A DNA stretch of 23,055 nucleotides from a virus, in the IMG/VR virus record IMGVR_UViG_3300030389_000292, positions 1 to 23,055 of that record. The stretch is one strand, 5' to 3'. Within the stretch, counting starts at the first letter, position 1, and each line of letters begins with the position of its first letter. Shown here one piece after another: positions 5,838 to 16,326 of the stretch. The translations under genes and the position numbers were made by a program. The notes below the pieces were generated by a model. That model did not search any database. It saw only the letters and a list, made by a program, of their open reading frames with translations, and was not told the origin of the DNA.

Positions 5838-8800
5838 ATGGCAAAAAGAAAAATGACAGCAAGAGAAGCCAAACAAAACCTTGAACCTTTTGGTTACAAA
5901 GGTCCTGCTAAGTGGGCATCAATAGATGCTTTTGTAGAGGCTAATCCTAGAGCTAAAGCTGCAGTAACTGCTAATAGGGGGATGTTTGTACAAAGTGAGG
6001 CACTAGGTTTTGCACAAGGTGGATCTACAGGACCATCTGAAGAAGCTATTAAGAAACTAGCTGACTTACGATATTTGTCGTATAAAACTGGTGTGTCTAC
6101 TGCAGAAATGAATGAAGCCTTAAAAGCTGTTGGTATAGATCCAACTTATAACAGATCTAGTATAGTTAGTGAAAATACTTATCAGAAAGGTCCTCAATAT
6201 AATTTGGGTTCTGTAGAAGAACAAAATGCAAACTTTAATTCTAGTCACCCTGATGCTGATACCTCTAATTGGAAAGAAACTTCTGACGGAAGATATTTAG
6301 TTAATCCAAATTATAATCCTAACGCTCTTACAGATTTTTTAGCTAAACATGGTTATAGTGATAGTGGTAATCCATTAGAGTTTTATGGAGACAATAAAGC
6401 TACAGATCCTGTTGCTAATGCTTTTGTTGAAAAAGATAAACAAAAAGGAGCGTCTATTAATAATAACGCAGCTAATAAACTCTTTGCAGAACAAGTTATG
6501 GCTGATCAAGGTATTACTGCAGATCAAACTAGTTATGTAACTGTTGGTGAAATGGGTATGACTCTTGATGATCTTAAGAAGAGTTATAAAAGTAGTATAC
6601 AAATTGCAAATGATGCTTGGGGTAAAAGTGGTTATGAACCAGAAGGCACAGACATATTAGATACAGTTTATTCTCCAACAAAACCTAAACCAGATCCAAT
6701 ACCATTACCTACTAGTATTCCAATAACACCTAATCCACAAGAGGTAGAACAAGCTAAGAAAATATTTGGAGCTGATGGTAAAGTTACATTACCTACTGGT
6801 TATCAACCTCCTAAAAAGACTACACTTGTTGAGCCACCACAATCTATAACTACTCCTGATTTTACAAAGCTACCATCAGGTGTAACTAAAGCACCTACTC
6901 AAATGTTTACTAATCAACAAGCTTCTCAGTTTAATCAGAGAGCTATAGATCAGGCTCAGTTAATTCAACCACAGACATTAGCAGAAAAGACAGCTGCAGG
7001 TATAGCACCTACAATACAACAAAGGATGTTTAAGAACCCACAAGGTATGACAACTTATGTTACAGGCACTGTAGGGGTTAATGGTAAATTTACACCTACT
7101 ACTGCTATACCTCCCGGCTATTCACCTGTACAAACTTTTAGTTCTGGTGGTCAACCTACTGGATCAGTAACTTATGAAAAAAATCAACAAGCTATAATGG
7201 ATCTAAATAATGCTTTTAGAGATCCTGAAACAGGTAATGTTAATATGTATCTTGCTCCTGATGGAGTTATGAGACCAGACCCTGAAGCTAGTAAAACTTA
7301 CACTGAAGCAATGCGAGTTTTAGACAAAGAGGGTTATGATGGATTTTATAAATTTTTGGAAGAAAATGCACCAAATGCAGAAAATTTAAAATTAGAAGGT
7401 AATTGGCAAGATTGGGTATCTGAGGAAAATAGACAAAATGTTGTTGGTTATGATTATGATAAAGGTGAATATGTAGGAGAGCAACCAACACCTACTCCAA
7501 CACCTAGTCCAACACCAACACCAGAACCAATTCCAGATCCTATTCCAACACCCACACCAACTCCAACTCCAACACCTACTCCTACACCTACACCTACTCC
7601 TACTCCTACTCCTGCTCCTGCACCTGTACAAGGAGTTACTGAAGTACCTACACAAACTTTTGGTCAGAATATAACAGATCAAGCATCTGACTTTAATCAA
7701 AGAGCAATACAGCAAGCTCAACTTATTCAACCTCAAACTCTTGCAGAAAAAGCTGCAGCAGGTACAGCAAGCACTATAGAACAAAGACTTTATAGAAATC
7801 CACAAGGTATGTCTACATACGTTACAGGAACAGTTAGTCCTGATGGTAAGTTTTCTCCTACTACTCCTGTACCACAAGGATATACACAAGCTCAACAAAT
7901 GCAAGCAGGTGGTGTGGCTACTCAAACTTTTAATGCACAAAAAATGCCTCTTCCAATACAATTGTCACCCGGTTATGGTGGTAGTGGTACACCACCTCCT
8001 CTTACTCCACCTACTATTCCTACTGAACTACAAGCTACTACGGCATCTTACGTGCCACCTACAGTATCAACAGATGAAAAAAATCCTACAGTTAATGTTG
8101 GTGGACAACAGTTGACAAAAGAACAAGTAGCTCAAGGACAAGCAGATCTTACAGCAAGTGCAGTATTAAATCCTGCAGGTACAGTTGCTGCTGCTCCTGT
8201 TGCTAATATTAATCCTGATGCATCAGGCACTGTATTATCAGCTACTACAGGTCAAGCATTAGGCACTGCTCCTATTGTTACTAAACCTGCACAGGTAACT
8301 ACAGCTGCTACAGCAGATACACCATCTAATGTTAAGGCTACTACTGCTGATCTTCAGAAAGCACAAACATCTGTTAAAGCAGCACTAGAAGGTGGTCTTG
8401 ATCCACAAGCTATGATAGATAGTTTAGCTGATACACCTGCAGGTCAGTTTGGTGAACAAAAATTTAATCCTGAAACAGGTAAAATAGAAGTAAAAATGCC
8501 TATGGCAGTGCCAATGGTTATGAACCCTGATGGTACTATGCCAGAGCCACAATTTGAAACTAAAGAATTTACACCTGAAGAATTTGCAGAGCAGTATGGA
8601 CTTGACACTAAAGACTTTACATCTGAAGGTGTACAAGCTGCTCAAAAATTAAAACAAAAAATAGATCCTACCACTGGTAAACCTATGGTTGATGCTCAAG
8701 GTAATCCAGTTATGGAGGCCGACTTAACTAAAGAAATAGAGGGTCAGGTAAAACAAAAACAAAAAGTAGATCCTGTTACTGGTCAGCCTATGGTGGATGC

Positions 8801-10226
8801 TGATGGTAATCCTATTATGGAAACGTATACAGATGTATCAGGTTTACAAGCAGCTAAGATAGATCAAGCTCAGACAGTAAAGGGTGCGCCCACTAGGGTA
8901 CTCCAAGACGGGACTAAAATACAACAAAAACAAAAAGTGGATGCTGATGGTAATCCTGTAGTAGATGCACAGGGTAATCCAGTAATGGAAGATGTTTTAG
9001 ATGCTAGTGGTAAGCCTGTTGTAATAGGTAGTGAATTAGTATCAGGTAGTGCTGTTGATCAAACTAAAGTGGGAGAAGCATTTGGTACTGGTGAAGTAAA
9101 AGCTGCATCTGTACAAGATGAACTGACTACTTTAATGGATCAGTTTGAAGGAGGTAATACACCATCTTGGGCTGCAGGAGCTATGCGTAAAGCAAACATG
9201 CTGATGGCTTCAAGAGGTTTAGGTGCATCAAGTATGGCAGGTCAAGCTGTAATACAAGCTGCAATGGAAGCTGCATTACCAATAGCACAGATTGATACTG
9301 CTAATAAACAACAGATGGCTTTAGCTAAAGCAGAACAAAGAGCTAAGTTTTTACAGCAAGATTTTGATCAAGCTTTTCAATCTAAAGTTATAAATGCAGC
9401 TAAGGTTAGTGAAATTGCTAACATGAACTTTAATGCTGATCAACAGGTAGCATTAGAGAATGCTAAGATGGCACAGACAGTAGACTTAGCCAACCTCAAT
9501 AATAAACAAGCATTAGTAATGGCTGAAGCTGCACAGTTATCTCAACTTGAAACACAAGGTTTAAGTAATTTACAACAAGCTCAAGTAGAGAATGCTAAAA
9601 ACTTCTTACAGATAGATATGGCTAATCTTAATAATGAACAACAAACAGAGATATTTAAAGCTCAAACAATAGCTAATACTATTTTAAGTGACACAGCTGC
9701 AGCTAATGCAAACGAACAGTTTAATGCTTCAAGTCAAATGCAGGTAGATCAATTTAATAATACTATGCAATCTCAACTTAATCAGTTTAACTCTGCACAA
9801 CTTAATGCTATGAATCAGTTTAATGCAGGTGAAGCTAACGCAATACAAAAGTTTAACTCAGAGTTACAAAGTCAAAGAGAACAGTTTAATGCATCTATGT
9901 ATGCACAGATAGCACAAGCTAATGCTAAGTGGAGACAAGATACAGAAACTATTAATACTGCAGCAGCTAATGAGAGTAACTTTCAGTATGCTAAAGATGT
10001 TAATGGATTAACTAATAAAGCTATTGATGAATTGTGGCAAAAAGAAAGAGACTTAATGAGTTATTCTTTTACAGCATCTGAATCTGCAAAAGATAGAGTT
10101 TTAAATATTGTTTTAGGGGATAAAACTCTTGAAGCAGTTAGACTTCAGTTAGAGGCAAAAGAAGATGCTGCTTTTACAGAAAATGTATTTGACCTTGTAT
10201 TTGGTGGTTTATTTGGAAGTTCATAA
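5838..10226 (+). CDS. Very large modular virion protein with PT linker and helical tail
   Basis: A 1462-residue protein without a catalytic motif that I recognise. Its order is: residues 1-340, mixed globular sequence starting [20 protein letters not shown]; 348-438, an APTQMF...NPQGM(T/S)TYVTGTV module; about 549-597, a Pro-Thr repeat linker; 599-692, a second copy of the module; about 700-930, low-complexity Ala/Thr/Pro; about 940-1051, three copies of a short KxDPxTGxPMVDAxGNPxME-like repeat; 1095-1190, [19 protein letters not shown] and an alpha-helical part; about 1195-1369, an Asn/Gln/Ala-rich helical rod with 11-residue period; and a charged C-terminus. AAGGA precedes the start. Location among late genes and the helical, repeat-rich build suggest an internal virion, tail or ejection protein. 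That is inference; there is no signal peptide. Confidence 0.8.
6879..7151 (+). repeat. Internal protein module, copy 1
   Basis: Codes residues 348-438 of the 1462-residue protein: [50 protein letters not shown]. The module recurs at 7632-7913 with most residues conserved, so it arose by duplication inside the gene. Confidence 0.85.
7484..7629 (+). repeat. Proline-threonine repeat tract (linker)
   Basis: About 49 codons reading mostly Pro-Thr, with a few Ser, Glu, Asp, Ile and Ala, in a 6-base rhythm (ccaacacctact type). As a protein it is an extended, non-helical linker between the two copies of the duplicated module. The DNA repeat is prone to length change by slippage. The antisense strand shows an Arg/Ser/Cys-rich open frame that is only its shadow. 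Confidence 0.9.
7632..7913 (+). repeat. Internal protein module, copy 2
   Basis: Codes residues 599-692: [50 protein letters not shown]. It is the second copy of the module at 6879-7151, with a few extra residues near its start. Confidence 0.85.
8654..8990 (+). repeat. Three short DPxTGxPMVDAxGNP repeats
   Basis: Copies lie at about 8654-8719, 8751-8822 and 8925-8990. They code [38 protein letters not shown] and [19 protein letters not shown], each preceded by KQK. The Asp/Gly/Asn-rich turns look like beta-hairpin or calcium-binding-like loops; binding is not shown. They separate the low-complexity part from the C-terminal helical part of the 1462-residue protein. Confidence 0.75.
9714..9944 (+). 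repeat. Seven 11-residue (hendecad) repeats with QFN signature
   Basis: Seven consecutive 33-base units, each coding 11 residues that start with xQFN or a close variant: [77 protein letters not shown] (residues 1293-1369). An 11-residue period is expected for a right-handed or nearly straight helical bundle. The preceding region, from about 9420, shows the same period with a different consensus. Confidence 0.85.
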
Positions 10227-10292
10227 ACTCGAATGTTATTTAGGGTTTTATTAATTTTAGCTTCGTTATTATTATTATTAAAGGAAACAAGT

Positions 10293-11078
10293 ATGGCTAG
10301 TATGTATCAAAAAGCTTATAATAAATTATTACAACAAGGGAGTGATACTTCATATCCGGCAAGGGTAGATAAATCAGCTTCACCAATGGCTAGACCTAGA
10401 GGTTTAGGAAGTCAGACTCCAAGTCCTGAATCACAAATAGCAAAAATACCAACAGATATAGCTATATACGAAAGATTTATGGATATTAGAGAACGTAATA
10501 GAGATTTAAAAAAGTTTTATGAAAAACAATTAGAAAGTCAAATGGGTGGGTCTGATAAAGTAAGTACAGAATTTAAAGGTAACAAGTTATTATTTCAACA
10601 ACTAGTTGATAAGCATGAAAGTGGAGGGTCTTATAAAGCTTTACTTAATAACCAAAATGAAAATAAAGACAGTAAATTTTATAATGTAGATGTAACTAAC
10701 ATGACTTTAGGAGAAGTGATAAAATTTACAGGTGGTGGAGAAGGAAAAACAAGTCCTTATTTGCAGTATAATAATTCACAGTATGGTCTTAATTCAAGTC
10801 CTGTTGGTAGATATCAATTTGTTGGAGATACATTAGTTGATATACAAGACAGAGGTAATTTTGATATGGATCGTAAGTTTGATAAAAAACTTCAAGATGA
10901 GTTATTTGATTGGTACATGAGAGACACACTTCAAGTTACTGGGGATATAGATAGTAAAATAGATTCTGTTTTAGGTAGATGGGAAGGTTTTAAAAACGCT
11001 AGTAGAAAAGATATTGAAAAAGCTATTAACGAATTTACAATGAGGGGTGTAACAACACCACCAGATAAAAGTATATAG
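10293..11078 (+). CDS. Lysozyme-like / transglycosylase-like peptidoglycan hydrolase
   Basis: A 261-residue protein. Residues 1-100 are polar and partly disordered. The second half has KHESGG (candidate catalytic Glu109), ALLNN, and SPVGRYQFVGDTL (169-181), a motif set like that of lysozyme-fold enzymes; lambda endolysin R has a similar GAGRYQL block after its catalytic Glu. It probably cleaves the glycan strand of peptidoglycan. The ATG at 10293 is chosen because AAGGA (10281-10285) lies seven bases upstream; an in-frame ATG at 10233 would add a hydrophobic MLFRVLLILASLLLLLKE lead and lacks a good binding site. It could be the endolysin or a virion-borne enzyme that opens the wall during DNA entry. 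Its place between two large virion-type genes favours the latter. Confidence 0.75.
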   Translation: MASMYQKAYNKLLQQGSDTSYPARVDKSASPMARPRGLGSQTPSPESQIAKIPTDIAIYERFMDIRERNRDLKKFYEKQLESQMGGSDKVSTEFKGNKLLFQQLVDKHESGGSYKALLNNQNENKDSKFYNVDVTNMTLGEVIKFTGGGEGKTSPYLQYNNSQYGLNSSPVGRYQFVGDTLVDIQDRGNFDMDRKFDKKLQDELFDWYMRDTLQVTGDIDSKIDSVLGRWEGFKNASRKDIEKAINEFTMRGVTTPPDKSI

Positions 11079-11088
11079 GAGAGTTTAA

Positions 11089-11628
11089 ATGCAATTTAAT
11101 AGGGCAATTCCGGGTCAGTCTTTAACAACACCCCCAAAGAGTGCGCCATACGAAAGACCACCACAAATTTCTGATCCTTTGGAAGCTTTAGACTATCACT
11201 TAGAAAGATTAGATGATCCTAAAGCTGTTGAAGAGTTAATGTTTTTTCTAGAGTTGGGTGTAGATTTAGTTTCATTAGTAGAAGGTGTGGCTCGTAATGC
11301 TGTTTTGGAAGGTATACACTCTATTGATATTAGTTTAATAATATCTCCAGTTATTCATGAATACATAAAAGGGTACGCTGATGCAATGAATATAGAATAC
11401 GAAGAAGGTTTTGAAGATAGAGATCAAGATGAAAGAATATCCTATGCTAGGAATGAGGTACTGGCTAGAAAAGTTTTAAGTGAGATGAGTTCTAAAGATG
11501 ATAGCGTAAGAATGCCACCTCAAAAGGATGAACCTGTTGAAGAGGAAATGCCTGAAATGAATACACCACCAGAAAAACCTCAAGAACAAACAACAGCACA
11601 ACCCCAAGGATTAATGGCGAGGATGTAA
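11089..11628 (+). CDS. Conserved phage protein of unknown function, probably structural
   Basis: A 179-residue protein. A Pro-rich start (MQFNRAIPGQSLTTPPKSAP) is followed by a compact helical domain (about 30-135: DPLEALDYHLERLDDP, LMFFLELGVDLVSLVEGVAR, GIHSIDISLIISPVIHEYIK) and a disordered Pro/Glu/Gln-rich tail (about 140-179). AGGAG precedes the ATG. The moderately hydrophobic helices have the look of packed globular helices, not membrane spans. Proteins with the same QFNR-IPGQSLT start and helical core recur in marine phage genomes near virion genes, with no assigned function that I know. The next ATG lies two bases after its stop, so translation is likely coupled. Confidence 0.75.
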   Translation: MQFNRAIPGQSLTTPPKSAPYERPPQISDPLEALDYHLERLDDPKAVEELMFFLELGVDLVSLVEGVARNAVLEGIHSIDISLIISPVIHEYIKGYADAMNIEYEEGFEDRDQDERISYARNEVLARKVLSEMSSKDDSVRMPPQKDEPVEEEMPEMNTPPEKPQEQTTAQPQGLMARM

Positions 11629-11629
11629 T

Positions 11630-12640
11630 ATGGCAAAATTTTCAAACGTAGGTTTAAGAAACTTTATAGATAAGACAAGAGCAAGAAGGGATTCTAGAGA
11701 AGAAGCCATTATGAATATCTATGCTAAACATGGTGGTATAGGACTTCGTAAAATATTTGGATCTGATTATAGAAAACCTGATCAAACAGCTGATGCATTT
11801 AATATGCAAGATGTAGATACTGATGATATCAAATATTCATCCAGTAAAGCTCAAAGTCAAGCATTGGCATTAAAAAGATTTGGAATGAGTGAAGAAGCTA
11901 TAGCTAGATTTGCTGCTAGTGGAGATCCTACAGTTTTTGAAAGACTTTTAAAAATTGTAAATAACCAACGTAAATTATACGAAGGTGAAGGTTTAAAAAT
12001 GCCTGAAGAAATTATAACTCAAATAGTTGAAGAGTCTACTATATCAGGACCTGCATCTAGTGGTAGAATAAATATACCTGCAATAGAAAAATATATAGGA
12101 AGAGAACTTGATACTTTGTATAAGGGGGTATTAGAACAACAAGATGTTACTGCAGGATCTGTAACTTTATTTGAACCTACTTTTGTAGAAAGTGTAACAC
12201 CTAGTGATATTACATCAGCTATAAATTTATATTCAGATGGAATGAGGAGTAAAGCTCTGAGAGAAAAAAGGTTACTTCTTGCAGAAAAGAGTAGATTGAA
12301 CAAAATTGAACAGAAAAACAGAACTGAATTTGAAAATAATCAGATAACTTTATTGAGTACTAGACTAGCTAGGATAGATGAGATTTTTCAAATGAAAGTT
12401 GAAGATCAATCTTTTGCTTTTGCAGATCTTTATGGAAATAGTTGGATGAGAGGTTTTATAGAAGAAAATCCTAAGTATAAAGTAAAAAATTTTCCTACAA
12501 TTTACACAGATGCTATGAATATATATCCTCAAGTATCTAGTGATGCTATGGGATTAGCTTTGTTAAGAGCTGGAGTGTTTGAAGATGGAACTATTGTTCA
12601 ACTACCTGATGGAGAAACTGTTAGGTTAAGTATCAAATGA
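11630..12640 (+). CDS. Unknown virion-associated protein
   Basis: A 336-residue protein not assigned to a named family. The N-terminus is basic and helical (KFSNVGLRNFIDKTRARRDS, residues 3-22; GGIGLRKIFGSDYR). The middle has a long charged helix (about 200-240, RSKALREKRLLLAEKSRLNK) that may form a coiled coil. The C-terminal part contains FADLYGNSWMRGFIEENPKY and ends in a beta hairpin, IVQLPDGETVRLSIK. It overlaps the next gene by four bases (ATGA), so the two are translated together, which suggests that they act in the same structure. I infer a DNA-ejection or internal virion role from this linkage alone. Confidence 0.7.
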   Translation: MAKFSNVGLRNFIDKTRARRDSREEAIMNIYAKHGGIGLRKIFGSDYRKPDQTADAFNMQDVDTDDIKYSSSKAQSQALALKRFGMSEEAIARFAASGDPTVFERLLKIVNNQRKLYEGEGLKMPEEIITQIVEESTISGPASSGRINIPAIEKYIGRELDTLYKGVLEQQDVTAGSVTLFEPTFVESVTPSDITSAINLYSDGMRSKALREKRLLLAEKSRLNKIEQKNRTEFENNQITLLSTRLARIDEIFQMKVEDQSFAFADLYGNSWMRGFIEENPKYKVKNFPTIYTDAMNIYPQVSSDAMGLALLRAGVFEDGTIVQLPDGETVRLSIK

Positions 12641-15600
12641 GAACTTTATCTTTAAATAATACTGCCGATAATATTAGAACTATATCTTTACTTGATGGTA
12701 ACGAAGCTCCTAAAGAAGAACATAGAACTATTTCATTAACTGATTTAGGGAATATTGATACTGTTAAAAATGAAGGTTCTATAAATTACTTTGATTTAGA
12801 TAAAATTTATGAAGAGTACGGAAGAGATTTAACTAAAGAAGATATTATTAATGATGAACGTCTTATGGATATTGTTCGTACAAGTCTTGAAGGTAGATAT
12901 GCACCGGGTGGTTTATTAACTAAAGGTAAAAGAGCTGCTGTAGGTTTAGCAGGTGGAGACATTGGTGGTCTTAGTGGTAGAGACTATCGTAATATGGATG
13001 CAGAAAAAGCTTTTGAGATCTGGCAAAACTATCAAAGATCTTTTGCAGGTGGACAAACAGTAACCACTGCTAATGAGATAGCTTATACTATAGGTGCTAG
13101 TGATGATATTAAGATGAAACTAGGATCAGGGTATAAATTATTTGACATGATGGGTAATGCTATTACTGGTGCTTTTAAAGGTGAAAGTACTTTTGCAGAA
13201 ATGGGTGATGCAGTATGGGACTATACAAAAGCAACTGTGTATGATCCATCAACACTATTAAGTTTTGGTTTAGGAAAAGTTTTTGGTTTTGGTGCAGCTA
13301 AAGCTTCAGGATTAGCTGCAAGAACTTTAATGATTAAGGCTTATCAAGACCAAATTAAAAAAGGTGTTGGTAAAGCAACTGCTATGAAAACTATTGGTCA
13401 AGCAGTAAAGAAAGCATTACCTTTCGCACTAGCAGATAGTGTTATTGGAGCAGGCACAGATGTAGCTTATCAAATGCAACTGATAGATGTAGGTGTTCAA
13501 GAAGAATTTAGTAAAGCACAAACTGCTATAACTGCAGCAGGTAATATGGTGGTGATTCCTGCTCTTGTTGCAGGTGGTGCAACATTTAAAGAGATAAGAA
13601 AAGCTATAGGCAGTTCTCCAGAAAAAAAGGGTTTAATTTCTAGGAATCTTCAACAGATTTTAGCCTACGAAGAGTTTGATAAAAATCTTTTAAAAATGAG
13701 TGTTGATGATGCTGAAAAACTTCTAAAGAATAGAGTTAAAAAAGAAACTATAAAGAAATATGTAGATAGAAACTGGGGTCTATCTCAAAAAGAAAGCAGA
13801 GATTTTCTTACTTGGCATGAAATAAAAGAAGAAGCTTCTAAGAATATAAAGATAAGGGGAGAAGATCTATTTGAAGATGAAACACAACAAGCATTTTTTA
13901 GATACTTTTGGCTAGGAGATCCCGATAAAGGTACTCAAGGTTTTTATGAAGCGTTAAAAGATGCAGGGTTTGTAGTTCATAAAAGTATGCAAGAAAAGTA
14001 TGGAAGCACTACTAAAATATTTTCACAAGCTATTAGAGATTTTTTAGATGAGGATCAGGCAAAACAAATAATTGAAAAGTTTGAGAAAGATACTGGTCGT
14101 CAATTAAAGTTTTATACTAAAGGTGTAGAAAGACCTGATGGAGTTATTGAATCTAAGATAATAAAAGACATAACACCAGATACTTTAGCTGATCAGTTTG
14201 TAAAGCAGACTAGCACAGCCGGTAAAAAACTTTGGGCAGTTGGTCATATGGCTAAGTTAGAAAAAGGTCTTCGTAATAAAAAGAAGAAACTAAATGCAAA
14301 GGAATTAACTGATATTGCTGCAGGAAAAACAGACCCAAAAGATGATCCTAAATACTTTCAGTTTACTTTATCTACTTATAAAAGATTATTAACATCACAC
14401 TTGTCAACTACAGGTGCTAACATTAAGGGTTTTACACAACTAGTATCTATTAATACTGCTGCTGATTTTGCTACTGCAGCTATTAATATGGGTCAAGGCA
14501 CTATTTATAAATTTGTTGGAAATGCCAAGGAAGCTGAAAGATACTATAATAGAGCATGGGGTTCAGCAATAGGTGCTATTAGAAGAGGCTTTGATGTAAT
14601 CTCTCCAGATGTACCTATGGAGTATGCAGATTTAATATTAGAGGCAAGTCCTGAAACAATGTCTAGACTCTTTAGAGATGTTGCAGGAGATGGTGGTATT
14701 CAAAATTCATTAGAAACCCTAAACATGGACAAAGCAGGTAAAGTTTGGAGAGGTGCAGATGCAATAACTAAAGGCGCACAAACTTTAACACTAGTAAGAC
14801 TACAAGATTCTATTACTAAGCGTTGGGCATTTGGTGCTAATGTTAATCAAGCTATTATGCGTGAGTACGGTGTAACTGCTAATCAGTTTTTAAAGAGGGT
14901 TGATGCAGGTCTTGAGATGGCATCAGATAGATTTAAAGAAAATGTATTAGAAAAAGCTTTATTTAGAACACAGAGAGAAACAGCATCTGTGAACTGGTCT
15001 ACACTTCCCGGAAAAGAGGGTATGTTGTCAGCTAGAAGATGGGCAAAAGGTTTAGAAACTGCAACAAATAGAAGTCCTATTGGTTTCGTTGTTCCTTTTG
15101 GTAGTTTTATGAATACTGCTGTTGCTACTATGGCAGACTATACTGGTATTAATACTTTAAGACTTGCTTATAGAAAAGCTACTGGTTTAGAACTAGACTT
15201 TGCTACCAGAGAAGGTGCAGAAATTGTAGGTAAACATGCAGCAGGTTGGGCATTGATAGGTATTGGTGTTTATGGTGGTGATGTATTAACTGCTGCAGAA
15301 GGTCAGGGTAGTGGTGGAGCATTAGAAAGAGTCAGAAATGGATTAAAATTTAATCAAGATTTATTACCTGACGGATCTGTTGTAGATAGAAAATATGACT
15401 GGCCTATGTCAGCTATGAGACTTATATCACAAATACTAGCTCATGGAATAACTAAGGATGGTAAGTTTGATAAAAGTCAAATACCGATGGATTTATTAGG
15501 ACCTCAACTTATAGATCAAATAATAGGTCAAGCAGTCAGAGATGTAGATGGTATAACACAAAGTCTTTCTTATTCTTTAGAAGAAGCATCTAAGGGTAAC

Positions 15601-16326
15601 TTTGATCCAATGCTTGAAATGGCAGGTGCAGGTTTGCAAAGAAGTATACAAGGTTTTACAAGACCACTTGATCCTATTAATACTGTTGTAGGTTTTATGA
15701 GGGATAGGGAAATGAATCCTGATTTTACTCAGGCAGAGTTAGGTTCTACTACTAGATATATAAATAACCTATTACCTACAGAAGAACTACCATCAAGAGC
15801 TGATCCTATTACAGGCGATCAAAAGACTTTTGATTTAGGTAAACAACTATTGGGTACTAGAATGCTAGGAACTCCTGATGTTGTAGAAAGAATGATTAAC
15901 TCTGTTGGAGCGCAAAGTTTTTTTGATGTATTTAGAATGACAATACCACCAAAATTACGGACTAAAGTTAATAGAGTTGCAGCACCTTTCTTTGAAGTAG
16001 CTGCTATAAAATACTTAAACAGACACCCTAACTTTTTTGAGCTACCTTTAGATCAAAGGCAAAGAATAGTAGACAAGATGACATCTGAAGTAAAATCTAA
16101 TACTAGAAAATTTATTAAAGATGGTATGCCTAAAGCCTATGATTTAATAATGTTATTAGATGATAAGAATAAAGATAAACTTAAAAAGGTTATGAACTTT
16201 TTAGAAATAGATCAGGATCTTGAAGACATGCTTGATGATCCTGATGCTGTTCCTACACTATTAAGAATTAAAGCTCTTATAGATAATTATGATGACATAT
16301 TTTTTGGAGATTTAATGTTAAATTAA
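12637..16326 (+). CDS. Large internal virion / DNA-ejection-like protein
   Basis: A 1229-residue protein, the last gene of the + strand arm. The extreme N-terminus has RTLSL, RTISL and RTISL at residues 2, 14 and 30. Several small-residue, hydrophobic stretches are scattered in a largely helical, charged protein: about 202-230 (YDPSTLLSFGLGKVFGFGAA), 299-317 (AGNMVVIPALVAGG), 814-835 (PIGFVVPFGSFMNTAVATMA) and 870-885 (GWALIGIGVYGGDVL). Such size and scattered amphipathic or membrane-active helices are known for large podovirus ejection proteins such as T7 gp16, which form a channel through the cell envelope. No peptidoglycan-hydrolase motif is seen in it; the lysozyme-like domain is instead in a separate gene at 10293. 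Homology to gp16 is not demonstrable by eye. Its stop codon overlaps that of the convergent gene. Confidence 0.7.
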   Translation: MRTLSLNNTADNIRTISLLDGNEAPKEEHRTISLTDLGNIDTVKNEGSINYFDLDKIYEEYGRDLTKEDIINDERLMDIVRTSLEGRYAPGGLLTKGKRAAVGLAGGDIGGLSGRDYRNMDAEKAFEIWQNYQRSFAGGQTVTTANEIAYTIGASDDIKMKLGSGYKLFDMMGNAITGAFKGESTFAEMGDAVWDYTKATVYDPSTLLSFGLGKVFGFGAAKASGLAARTLMIKAYQDQIKKGVGKATAMKTIGQAVKKALPFALADSVIGAGTDVAYQMQLIDVGVQEEFSKAQTAITAAGNMVVIPALVAGGATFKEIRKAIGSSPEKKGLISRNLQQILAYEEFDKNLLKMSVDDAEKLLKNRVKKETIKKYVDRNWGLSQKESRDFLTWHEIKEEASKNIKIRGEDLFEDETQQAFFRYFWLGDPDKGTQGFYEALKDAGFVVHKSMQEKYGSTTKIFSQAIRDFLDEDQAKQIIEKFEKDTGRQLKFYTKGVERPDGVIESKIIKDITPDTLADQFVKQTSTAGKKLWAVGHMAKLEKGLRNKKKKLNAKELTDIAAGKTDPKDDPKYFQFTLSTYKRLLTSHLSTTGANIKGFTQLVSINTAADFATAAINMGQGTIYKFVGNAKEAERYYNRAWGSAIGAIRRGFDVISPDVPMEYADLILEASPETMSRLFRDVAGDGGIQNSLETLNMDKAGKVWRGADAITKGAQTLTLVRLQDSITKRWAFGANVNQAIMREYGVTANQFLKRVDAGLEMASDRFKENVLEKALFRTQRETASVNWSTLPGKEGMLSARRWAKGLETATNRSPIGFVVPFGSFMNTAVATMADYTGINTLRLAYRKATGLELDFATREGAEIVGKHAAGWALIGIGVYGGDVLTAAEGQGSGGALERVRNGLKFNQDLLPDGSVVDRKYDWPMSAMRLISQILAHGITKDGKFDKSQIPMDLLGPQLIDQIIGQAVRDVDGITQSLSYSLEEASKGNFDPMLEMAGAGLQRSIQGFTRPLDPINTVVGFMRDREMNPDFTQAELGSTTRYINNLLPTEELPSRADPITGDQKTFDLGKQLLGTRMLGTPDVVERMINSVGAQSFFDVFRMTIPPKLRTKVNRVAAPFFEVAAIKYLNRHPNFFELPLDQRQRIVDKMTSEVKSNTRKFIKDGMPKAYDLIMLLDDKNKDKLKKVMNFLEIDQDLEDMLDDPDAVPTLLRIKALIDNYDDIFFGDLMLN
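16323..16326. other. Convergent gene junction with overlapping stop codons
   Basis: The + strand TAA (16324-16326) and the - strand TAA (16325-16323) share the bases TTAA. There is no intergenic room, and no GC-rich hairpin with T-run was found on either side within about 60 bases. Every gene before this point in the window is on + and every gene after it on -. Confidence 0.9.

Follow-up and report, generated by a model that had tools for sequence, protein, structure and literature searches.

Podophages eject internal virion proteins that form channels across the cell envelope, as set out in the accessible portions of PMC8954989, PMC11440229 and PMC4755594. In the T7 ejectosome (gp14, gp15 and gp16), helical proteins leave ahead of the DNA according to the available text of PMC8954989, and Sf6 gp12 appears in the accessible part of PMC4755594 as a decameric assembly with a channel. 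The H protein of phiX174, a tailless ssDNA phage, forms a decameric helical tube (residues 151–271) that serves as a DNA conduit; passages of PMC7354561 describe a lumen whose lining is chiefly Asn, Gln and Arg, and a first part of three hendecads that is followed by a transition and then by heptads. An 11-residue register in a helical stalk is also described, in the sections of PMC6191539 at hand, for hendecad/undecad coiled coils such as NadA3.

Here we analyze a protein repeat encoded in a 23,055-nt stretch of DNA (IMG/VR record IMGVR_UViG_3300030389_000292; hereafter the window) from a marine short-tailed virus of bacteria, an HMO-2011-type podovirus. The repeat is a helical rod that has the hendecads and the Asn/Gln-rich helix in common with phiX174 H, but differs in running through about 11 to 69 hendecads with an unchanged period and in belonging to a short-tailed podovirus. 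The likeness to the T7 set lies in the podovirus background, several presumably internal proteins and a wall-cutting activity, that to P22 and Sf6 in a putative podovirus injection set, a P22-like coat protein being annotated in HMO-2011. From NadA3-type coils, the rod is set apart by two seams along most of its length, by Asn and Gln within the seams and by its phage origin.

Profile comparison with hhalign yielded a probability of 0.2 for phiX174 H (no detectable homology), of 6.7 and 0.4 for gp14 and gp15, the two T7 proteins compared out of the three (no homology), and of 0.1 each for P22 gp20, gp7 and gp16 taken singly. The lag-11 identity of phiX174 H exceeds that of all 200 shuffles; T7 gp14, gp15 and gp16 have no 11-residue repeat above shuffles. 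Kinship with T7 gp14 was rejected, the match consisting of a short IPIA stretch only. We also rejected kinship with P22 gp7 via the RGL..S motif, which is aligned there without reaching significance: 6 of 100 column shuffles attain the score of the gp7-family profile, built from five of ten loci plus three P22-type rows (L446, L451, L452, L453 and L455, unmatched at E ≤0.01, were left out). The gp7-family proteins (P22 gp7, L364; L445, L447, L448, L449 and L457) share a glycine-containing motif, like RGLxxSS here, and ARGxLLSG occurs in three of the five members besides P22 gp7. Most relatives of T7 gp14 and P22 gp7 drawn from viral contigs were so close that they added little.

The 1462-residue protein and its repeat

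The open reading frame of 1462 residues noted earlier is borne out (positions 5838–10226, + strand) and opens a conserved gene cassette. With the whole protein as query, tblastn recovered 27 phage records, all below 60% identity and matching only within residues 907–1461; they comprise Roseobacter (CRP), Pelagibacter (HTVC), Puniceispirillum (HMO-2011), Vibrio (CHOED), Aeromonas, Pseudoalteromonas, Rhizobium and Sinorhizobium phages and one uncultured virus. By this protein, the relatives are HMO-2011-type podoviruses and more distant ones.

The rod forms the C-terminal quarter of the protein and lies between two conserved helical domains. The N-flank domain (residues 1087–1153; 9096–9296, + strand), delimited from alignments, carries the motif PxWAAGAxR..RGLxxSSxAG..SALPIAQxD and is helical in both structure models described below (block pLDDT 66–86). 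The rod itself (residues 1145–1362; 9270–9923, + strand) measures 217 residues from anchor to anchor, equivalent to 8 mod 11; the earlier note had placed it at 9420–9944, whereas its register starts earlier and the conserved flanks bound it at 9270–9923. Its N-zone (9306–9680, + strand) bears two hydrophobic seams on opposite faces in the family profile, with Asn at phase 8 and Gln at phases 2 and 3. A 29-residue mid landmark of the family form SDQAAxNAAxQFNAxS (9681–9767, + strand) and seven 11-residue units (9714–9944, + strand) come next, the Phe of the latter occupying phase 7 on the main hydrophobic face. The exact 11-residue spacing attributed to these units stands; the QFN signature attributed to all seven is found in only five, one reading KFN and the last QAN. 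The conserved C-flank helical domain starts with NxxWR and extends to the end of the protein (residues 1362–1462; 9921–10223, + strand). Further upstream, a module (..NPQGMxTYVTGTV) is present twice in the N-part (about 6897–7073 and 7650–7835; residues ~354–412 and ~605–666), with unrelated sequence between the two copies that closes with a proline-threonine repeat, and three related consecutive segments (KQKxD ... VDAxGNPxME; about 8640–9017, residues ~935–1060) occur shortly before the N-flank domain.

Within residues 1195–1369, the five highest self-identity lags among 1–59 are 44, 11, 22, 33 and 55, and the identity at lag 11 (0.232 versus a shuffle mean of 0.102) was reached in none of 2000 shuffles. 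In the QFN block, it rises to 0.333 (0/2000 shuffles). That the same period precedes the QFN units, as proposed, holds with a lag-11 identity of 0.184 (20/2000 shuffles), a weaker signal than in the QFN block; the 17-residue LENAK/VENAK recurrence, previously given as 55 residues, in fact spans 44, or four periods (unit starts 1207 and 1251). Asn and Gln make up 33% of the stretch, for which helix is predicted. The description as an Asn/Gln-rich hendecad helical rod is supported. Periodicity analysis of the protein thus confirmed the repeat at the level of lag-11 self-identity, but hydrophobicity at 3.667 residues rose above shuffles in the QFN block alone (z 2.7, 49/2000 shuffles). There was no excess at 3.667 residues over shuffles in the stretch claimed earlier (z −0.7) or in the whole rod (z −0.8), and the best hydrophobicity period among those tried for the claimed stretch was 3.75 (z 3.8, 17/2000 shuffles). 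The poor signal at 3.667 is explained by hydrophobic residues that, in the family profile, sit on two seams which shift between zones.

Rod length across the family

Rod length was read between an N-anchor (ALPIAQ) and a C-anchor (NxxWR), set by pattern in the window and in 23 named phages; where NxxW could be fitted at several places one was chosen, and L012, L013, L020 and L023, for which the pattern failed, were anchored by eye. The anchor distance was 8 mod 11 in 24 of 24. IMG/VR relatives were collected from four scans (the best 80 among the matches listed in each), after which profiles of the two flank domains alone were searched against all open frames of 120 codons or more on the strand that matched. 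This gave 342 sequences, namely the window and 341 loci (one a copy of the window), all with both flank domains; the distance was read directly for 334 and, for the eight in which the first profile column is missing, extrapolated from the fourth (Trp or Tyr).

All 342 of these sequences, among them the window, have a flank-to-flank distance of 8 mod 11. They represent 20 distinct rod lengths from 118 to 756 residues, or about 11 to 69 hendecads, and 299 distinct rod sequences that fall into 259, 167, 49 and 21 clusters at 95, 80, 60 and 50% identity. Among the moduli tried (3–13, 18 and 22), 11 alone places all 20 lengths in a single class, 22 splitting them 12 to 8. As controls, the distance from the C-anchor to the end of the frame spreads over all eleven classes (18 to 50 sequences each, n = 342), and so does that from the N-anchor to the first Met (20 to 34 each, n = 274). 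Both halves of the rod are quantized separately, the N-anchor to the mid landmark at 5 mod 11 and the mid landmark to the C-anchor at 3 mod 11 (342/342), the mid profile itself lying within the repeat. If lengths were free, 20 of them would fall into one of eleven classes with a chance of about 11^-19, an estimate in which shared ancestry is handled by counting distinct lengths and tree changes alone. On a FastTree phylogeny of the flank domains, built without the rod for 164 of the 167 representatives at 80% identity, the fewest changes in rod length amount to 35; the same tree requires 29 changes before the mid landmark and 11 after it, and 14 changes between odd and even hendecad number before it. 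The relatives therefore keep the period while the repeat number changes, and no broken 11-residue register was encountered among them.

In one scan of viral contigs, at least 540 of 600 candidate stretches among the matches listed encode a relative. Four loci were found in bacterial MAG contigs. The longest rod (L169, 756 residues) looks, by eye, like an in-register segmental duplication of about 220 residues, or 20 hendecads.

Residue phases and predicted structure

Residue-phase information, calculated over 49 clusters, is highest at moduli 11 (0.595 bits) and 22 (0.653 bits); no other modulus between 4 and 25 exceeds 0.104. With phases counted from the N-anchor, 65% of residues at phase 8 are Asn and 47% of those at phase 3 are Gln in the 167 representatives, and Pro rounds to zero; rod interiors are free of Pro in 299 of 299 rod sequences, and Gly makes up 1.1% of the rod. 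Taken together, the common length class of all 342 sequences, the mod-11 residue phase and the absence of Pro lead to the conclusion, at the level of sequence, that the rod keeps a stutter-free hendecad register and changes length only in whole hendecads, its length being quantized in every sequence examined.

A single hydrophobic core stripe along the whole rod was not found in the family profile. In the N-zone, two seams lie nearly opposite each other (phase 4 versus phases 9 and 6; second harmonic 7.8, first 3.3); one side holds Asn at phase 8 and the often-charged phases 1 and 5, the other Gln at phase 3 as well as phases 10 and 7. The dominant face of the QFN zone is made up of phase 7, which is Phe in 74%, and phase 4, and is opposed by a weaker seam of Ala at phase 9 (second harmonic 7.0 versus 5.4 for the first). 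Charged residues concentrate at phases 1 and 5, opposite an uncharged, Gln-rich amide arc, and the net charge of the rod is near neutral (median −0.023 per residue). A helix with two seams would be suited to side-by-side packing in sheets or barrels.

The AlphaFold2 model of window residues 1087–1462 (model 1; 94 aligned sequences, pLDDT 72.9, pTM 0.34) is all-helical without strands, with helices at 214–243 and 248–303 in and after the QFN zone. The model of a relative with a rod of 426 residues (model 2; 23 sequences, pLDDT 57.3, pTM 0.21) is likewise helical and free of strands; it contains helices of 80, 86 and 112 residues with shorter ones between them and is broken at residues 219–301. 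A confident globular fold was predicted in neither case, both models being of low confidence. A continuous helix along the rod is probable. Foldseek retrieved five viral models at E <0.001 with model 1, at an identity of 58% for the best and 25–28% for the remaining four; against the PDB, no match fell below 0.001. In a sequence search of the PDB with the whole protein, all matches lay outside the rod, in the proline-threonine stretch and elsewhere, and the best solved chain for the profile had an E of 4.3. Thus, no relative of the rod was found among solved structures, Pfam or PHROGs.

Gene neighborhood and fused domains

In the neighborhoods examined, those of 23 of the 27 records, the rod gene comes first in a cassette, followed by small or lytic genes, genes for proteins of ~160–200 and ~300–940 residues and a giant one of ~817–1893 residues (lengths computed by hand from annotation tables); the syntenic cassette with its giant last protein was found in podoviruses of several host groups. 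In the window, the rod gene is followed by a gene for a 281-residue protein (10233–11078, + strand) with a lysozyme-like region that matches phrog_90, an endolysin family (E 7e-4), two PHROGs of unknown function matching more strongly; the CRP-603 gene in the corresponding position is annotated as a cell wall hydrolase. A 179-residue neighbor follows (11089–11628, + strand), with a similar-sized gene at the same place in relatives. By gene order, a 336-residue neighbor (11630–12640, + strand) corresponds to the gene of variable length in relatives, and a 1229-residue neighbor (12637–16326, + strand) takes the place of the giant last gene; the latter had no Pfam or PHROG match. Rod length showed no significant rank correlation with the length of the second-last (rho −0.31, P 0.15, n = 24) or last cassette gene (rho 0.17, P 0.42, n = 24). 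A legend in the CRP-phage paper (PMC6918029) has internal virion protein D and lytic transglycosylase among its gene labels.

No Pfam or PHROG family names the 1462-residue protein or its conserved part, and the only NCBIfam match of the window's protein falls on its proline-threonine stretch. Among 137 scanned N-parts, the shorter ones of 158 complete N-parts, LysM was detected in two (one of them re-scanned and above the Pfam cut-off) and DUF4214 in two. At L263:3006-4130, a LysM peptidoglycan-binding domain is fused ahead of the rod (residues 94–138 of the frame). At the other end, Peptidase_S74 (PF13884) scored above the Pfam cut-off in eight of nine C-terminal tails tested (seven of the nine longest and two others); by pattern, it was present in 11 of 167 representatives, all with a rod of 162 residues, and the Pfam scan found none in the window's protein. 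L014, L021, L022, L023, L215, L218, L237 and L245 have a rod of 162 and end in this intramolecular chaperone. Its presence suggests trimers in the branch of these relatives. The relative in ctYwJ313 (L013:3399-5990) is publicly annotated as "huntingtin", presumably a misannotation. A description of this family's repeat was not found in the full-text literature searched, to which subscription papers mostly do not belong.

Discussion

Because the gene sits next to one for a cell-wall enzyme and in a cassette with a giant protein, we favor as the likeliest role, tentatively and by analogy with the H pilot of phiX174, an internal virion protein that is ejected and forms a tube or bundle of helices. 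Further points in its favor are the position of the gene at the head of the cassette, the lytic neighbor and the LysM domains in 2 of 137 N-parts. The rod would read in hendecads, 11 residues making three turns or about 16.5 Å, and its exact, stutter-free register would entail near-straight 11/3 packing with neighboring helices along its length. Several copies may exit the capsid in extended helical form and then associate laterally, the resulting tube or bundle aiding passage of the short-tailed phage's DNA across the cell envelope, possibly in concert with the wall-cutting enzyme encoded next door and the remaining proteins of the cassette; the uncharged Asn/Gln stripe might then face the DNA, as in the tube of phiX174 H. 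In the portions of the CRP-phage and MQM1 literature examined, we found neither evidence for the protein in the virion nor virion proteomics. Other points that weigh against ejection are the missing homology to the ejection proteins compared, the low confidence and the helix breaks of both models, the Peptidase_S74 domain in part of the family, the extreme length of the longest rod and a rod length that varies independently of the host.

The earlier note had suggested that the rod could span part of the cell envelope or the tail lumen during DNA ejection. A role in ejection is plausible on the grounds just given; a position in the tail lumen and a fixed envelope span are unlikely. With the helical rise of 1.5 Å per residue, rods would span about 18 to 113 nm as straight helices. 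The 184-residue rod of the relative MQM1 would measure about 28 nm as one straight helix, as against a tail of 9.2 nm and a capsid of 70.6 nm in this phage, going by the part of its description available. A fixed envelope span is hard to reconcile with phages of a single strain, FZCC0040, that carry rods of 217 (CRP-207) and 162 residues (CRP-235, CRP-3 and CRP-212), or with the relative that has a rod of 756; the host envelope therefore does not set the length, and a host-set envelope ruler was rejected as its main reason. Pelagibacter phages, on two host strains, have rods of 316 and 162. Inside a capsid of the MQM1 size, the rod of 756 residues, about 113 nm when straight, would have to fold or coil.

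It seems improbable to us that the protein is an external fiber or needle with a trimeric hendecad stalk, exchangeable N-part domains and, in some cases, a terminal intramolecular chaperone. Peptidase_S74 is a domain of trimeric fibers, and its occurrence in the C-terminal tails of some relatives with a rod of 162, the LysM and DUF4214 domains in N-parts (2/137 each) and the location of the gene a short way downstream of tail-fiber genes would fit such a role, but the window's copy has no S74, and the two hydrophobic seams of the N-zone deviate from the single face expected of a trimer. Fibers are, moreover, as a rule anchored by a conserved N-terminus, whereas here the conserved parts flank the rod and the N-part is variable. 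An internal core or scaffold protein, whose helices pack round the portal or the DNA in the capsid and form no conduit, is unlikely to a similar degree. The position in a cassette of giant proteins, the near-neutral charge and a two-seamed helix fit for side-by-side packing would all be compatible with it; it leaves the lytic neighbor and the LysM fusions unexplained, and rods longer than the capsid would need folding.

Independent of the role, and compatible with any of them, the N-zone could be a solenoid of 22-residue helix-turn units, with only the QFN zone forming a long helix. We consider this quite unlikely. Model 1 does resolve the N-zone, at low confidence, into helices of about 15 residues with breaks roughly every 22, and 12 of the 15 N-to-mid lengths belong to one 22-residue series. 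The breaks, however, coincide with low pLDDT, the first part of model 2 contains helices that run for 80 and 86 residues without interruption, with shorter ones after residue 219, modulus 22 adds just 0.06 bits over modulus 11, and odd hendecad steps exist (N-to-mid lengths of 137, 203 and 313; at least 14 parity changes).

Apolipoproteins and alpha-synuclein have 11/3 helices that bind flat along a membrane. A helix of this kind that inserts on infection would have the 11-residue period and the dominant hydrophobic face of the QFN zone on its side, but is very unlikely in view of the opposite seams of the N-zone (second harmonic 7.8 versus 3.3) and the larger second harmonic in the QFN zone too (7.0 versus 5.4), the slightly negative net charge and the hydropathy of the 80 residues that start 60 past the C-anchor, where a 19-residue window with a mean of 1.6 occurs in 0 of 167 representatives. 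Siphophage tape measure proteins are long, helical and variable in length, a likeness to the present protein that ends at the short tails described for CRP phages and MQM1 (accessible parts of PMC6918029 and of the MQM1 report); a tail tape measure was rejected for this reason and because neither Pfam nor PHROGs gave a match to such a family.

Viral contigs commonly encode this family, yet it has no Pfam or PHROG family model and no solved relative. In a wider sense, and more doubtfully than the ejection role itself, it may constitute a large unclassified podovirus ejection family whose amide-lined conduits are built of pure hendecads (about 11 to 69) and evolve in length by whole 11-residue units independently of the host, as a kind of modular nanotube. 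If a DNA conduit is indeed formed, the pilot-tube principle of phiX174 would be extended to tailed phages. That a single protein occurs in nature with 20 rod lengths, spaced by exact hendecads, offers a means to probe the part that rod length plays in infection and lets the evolution of straight helical assemblies be studied. Whatever its role, the rod provides a sharp demonstration, drawn from sequence only, that helix geometry can confine insertions and deletions to whole structural periods.
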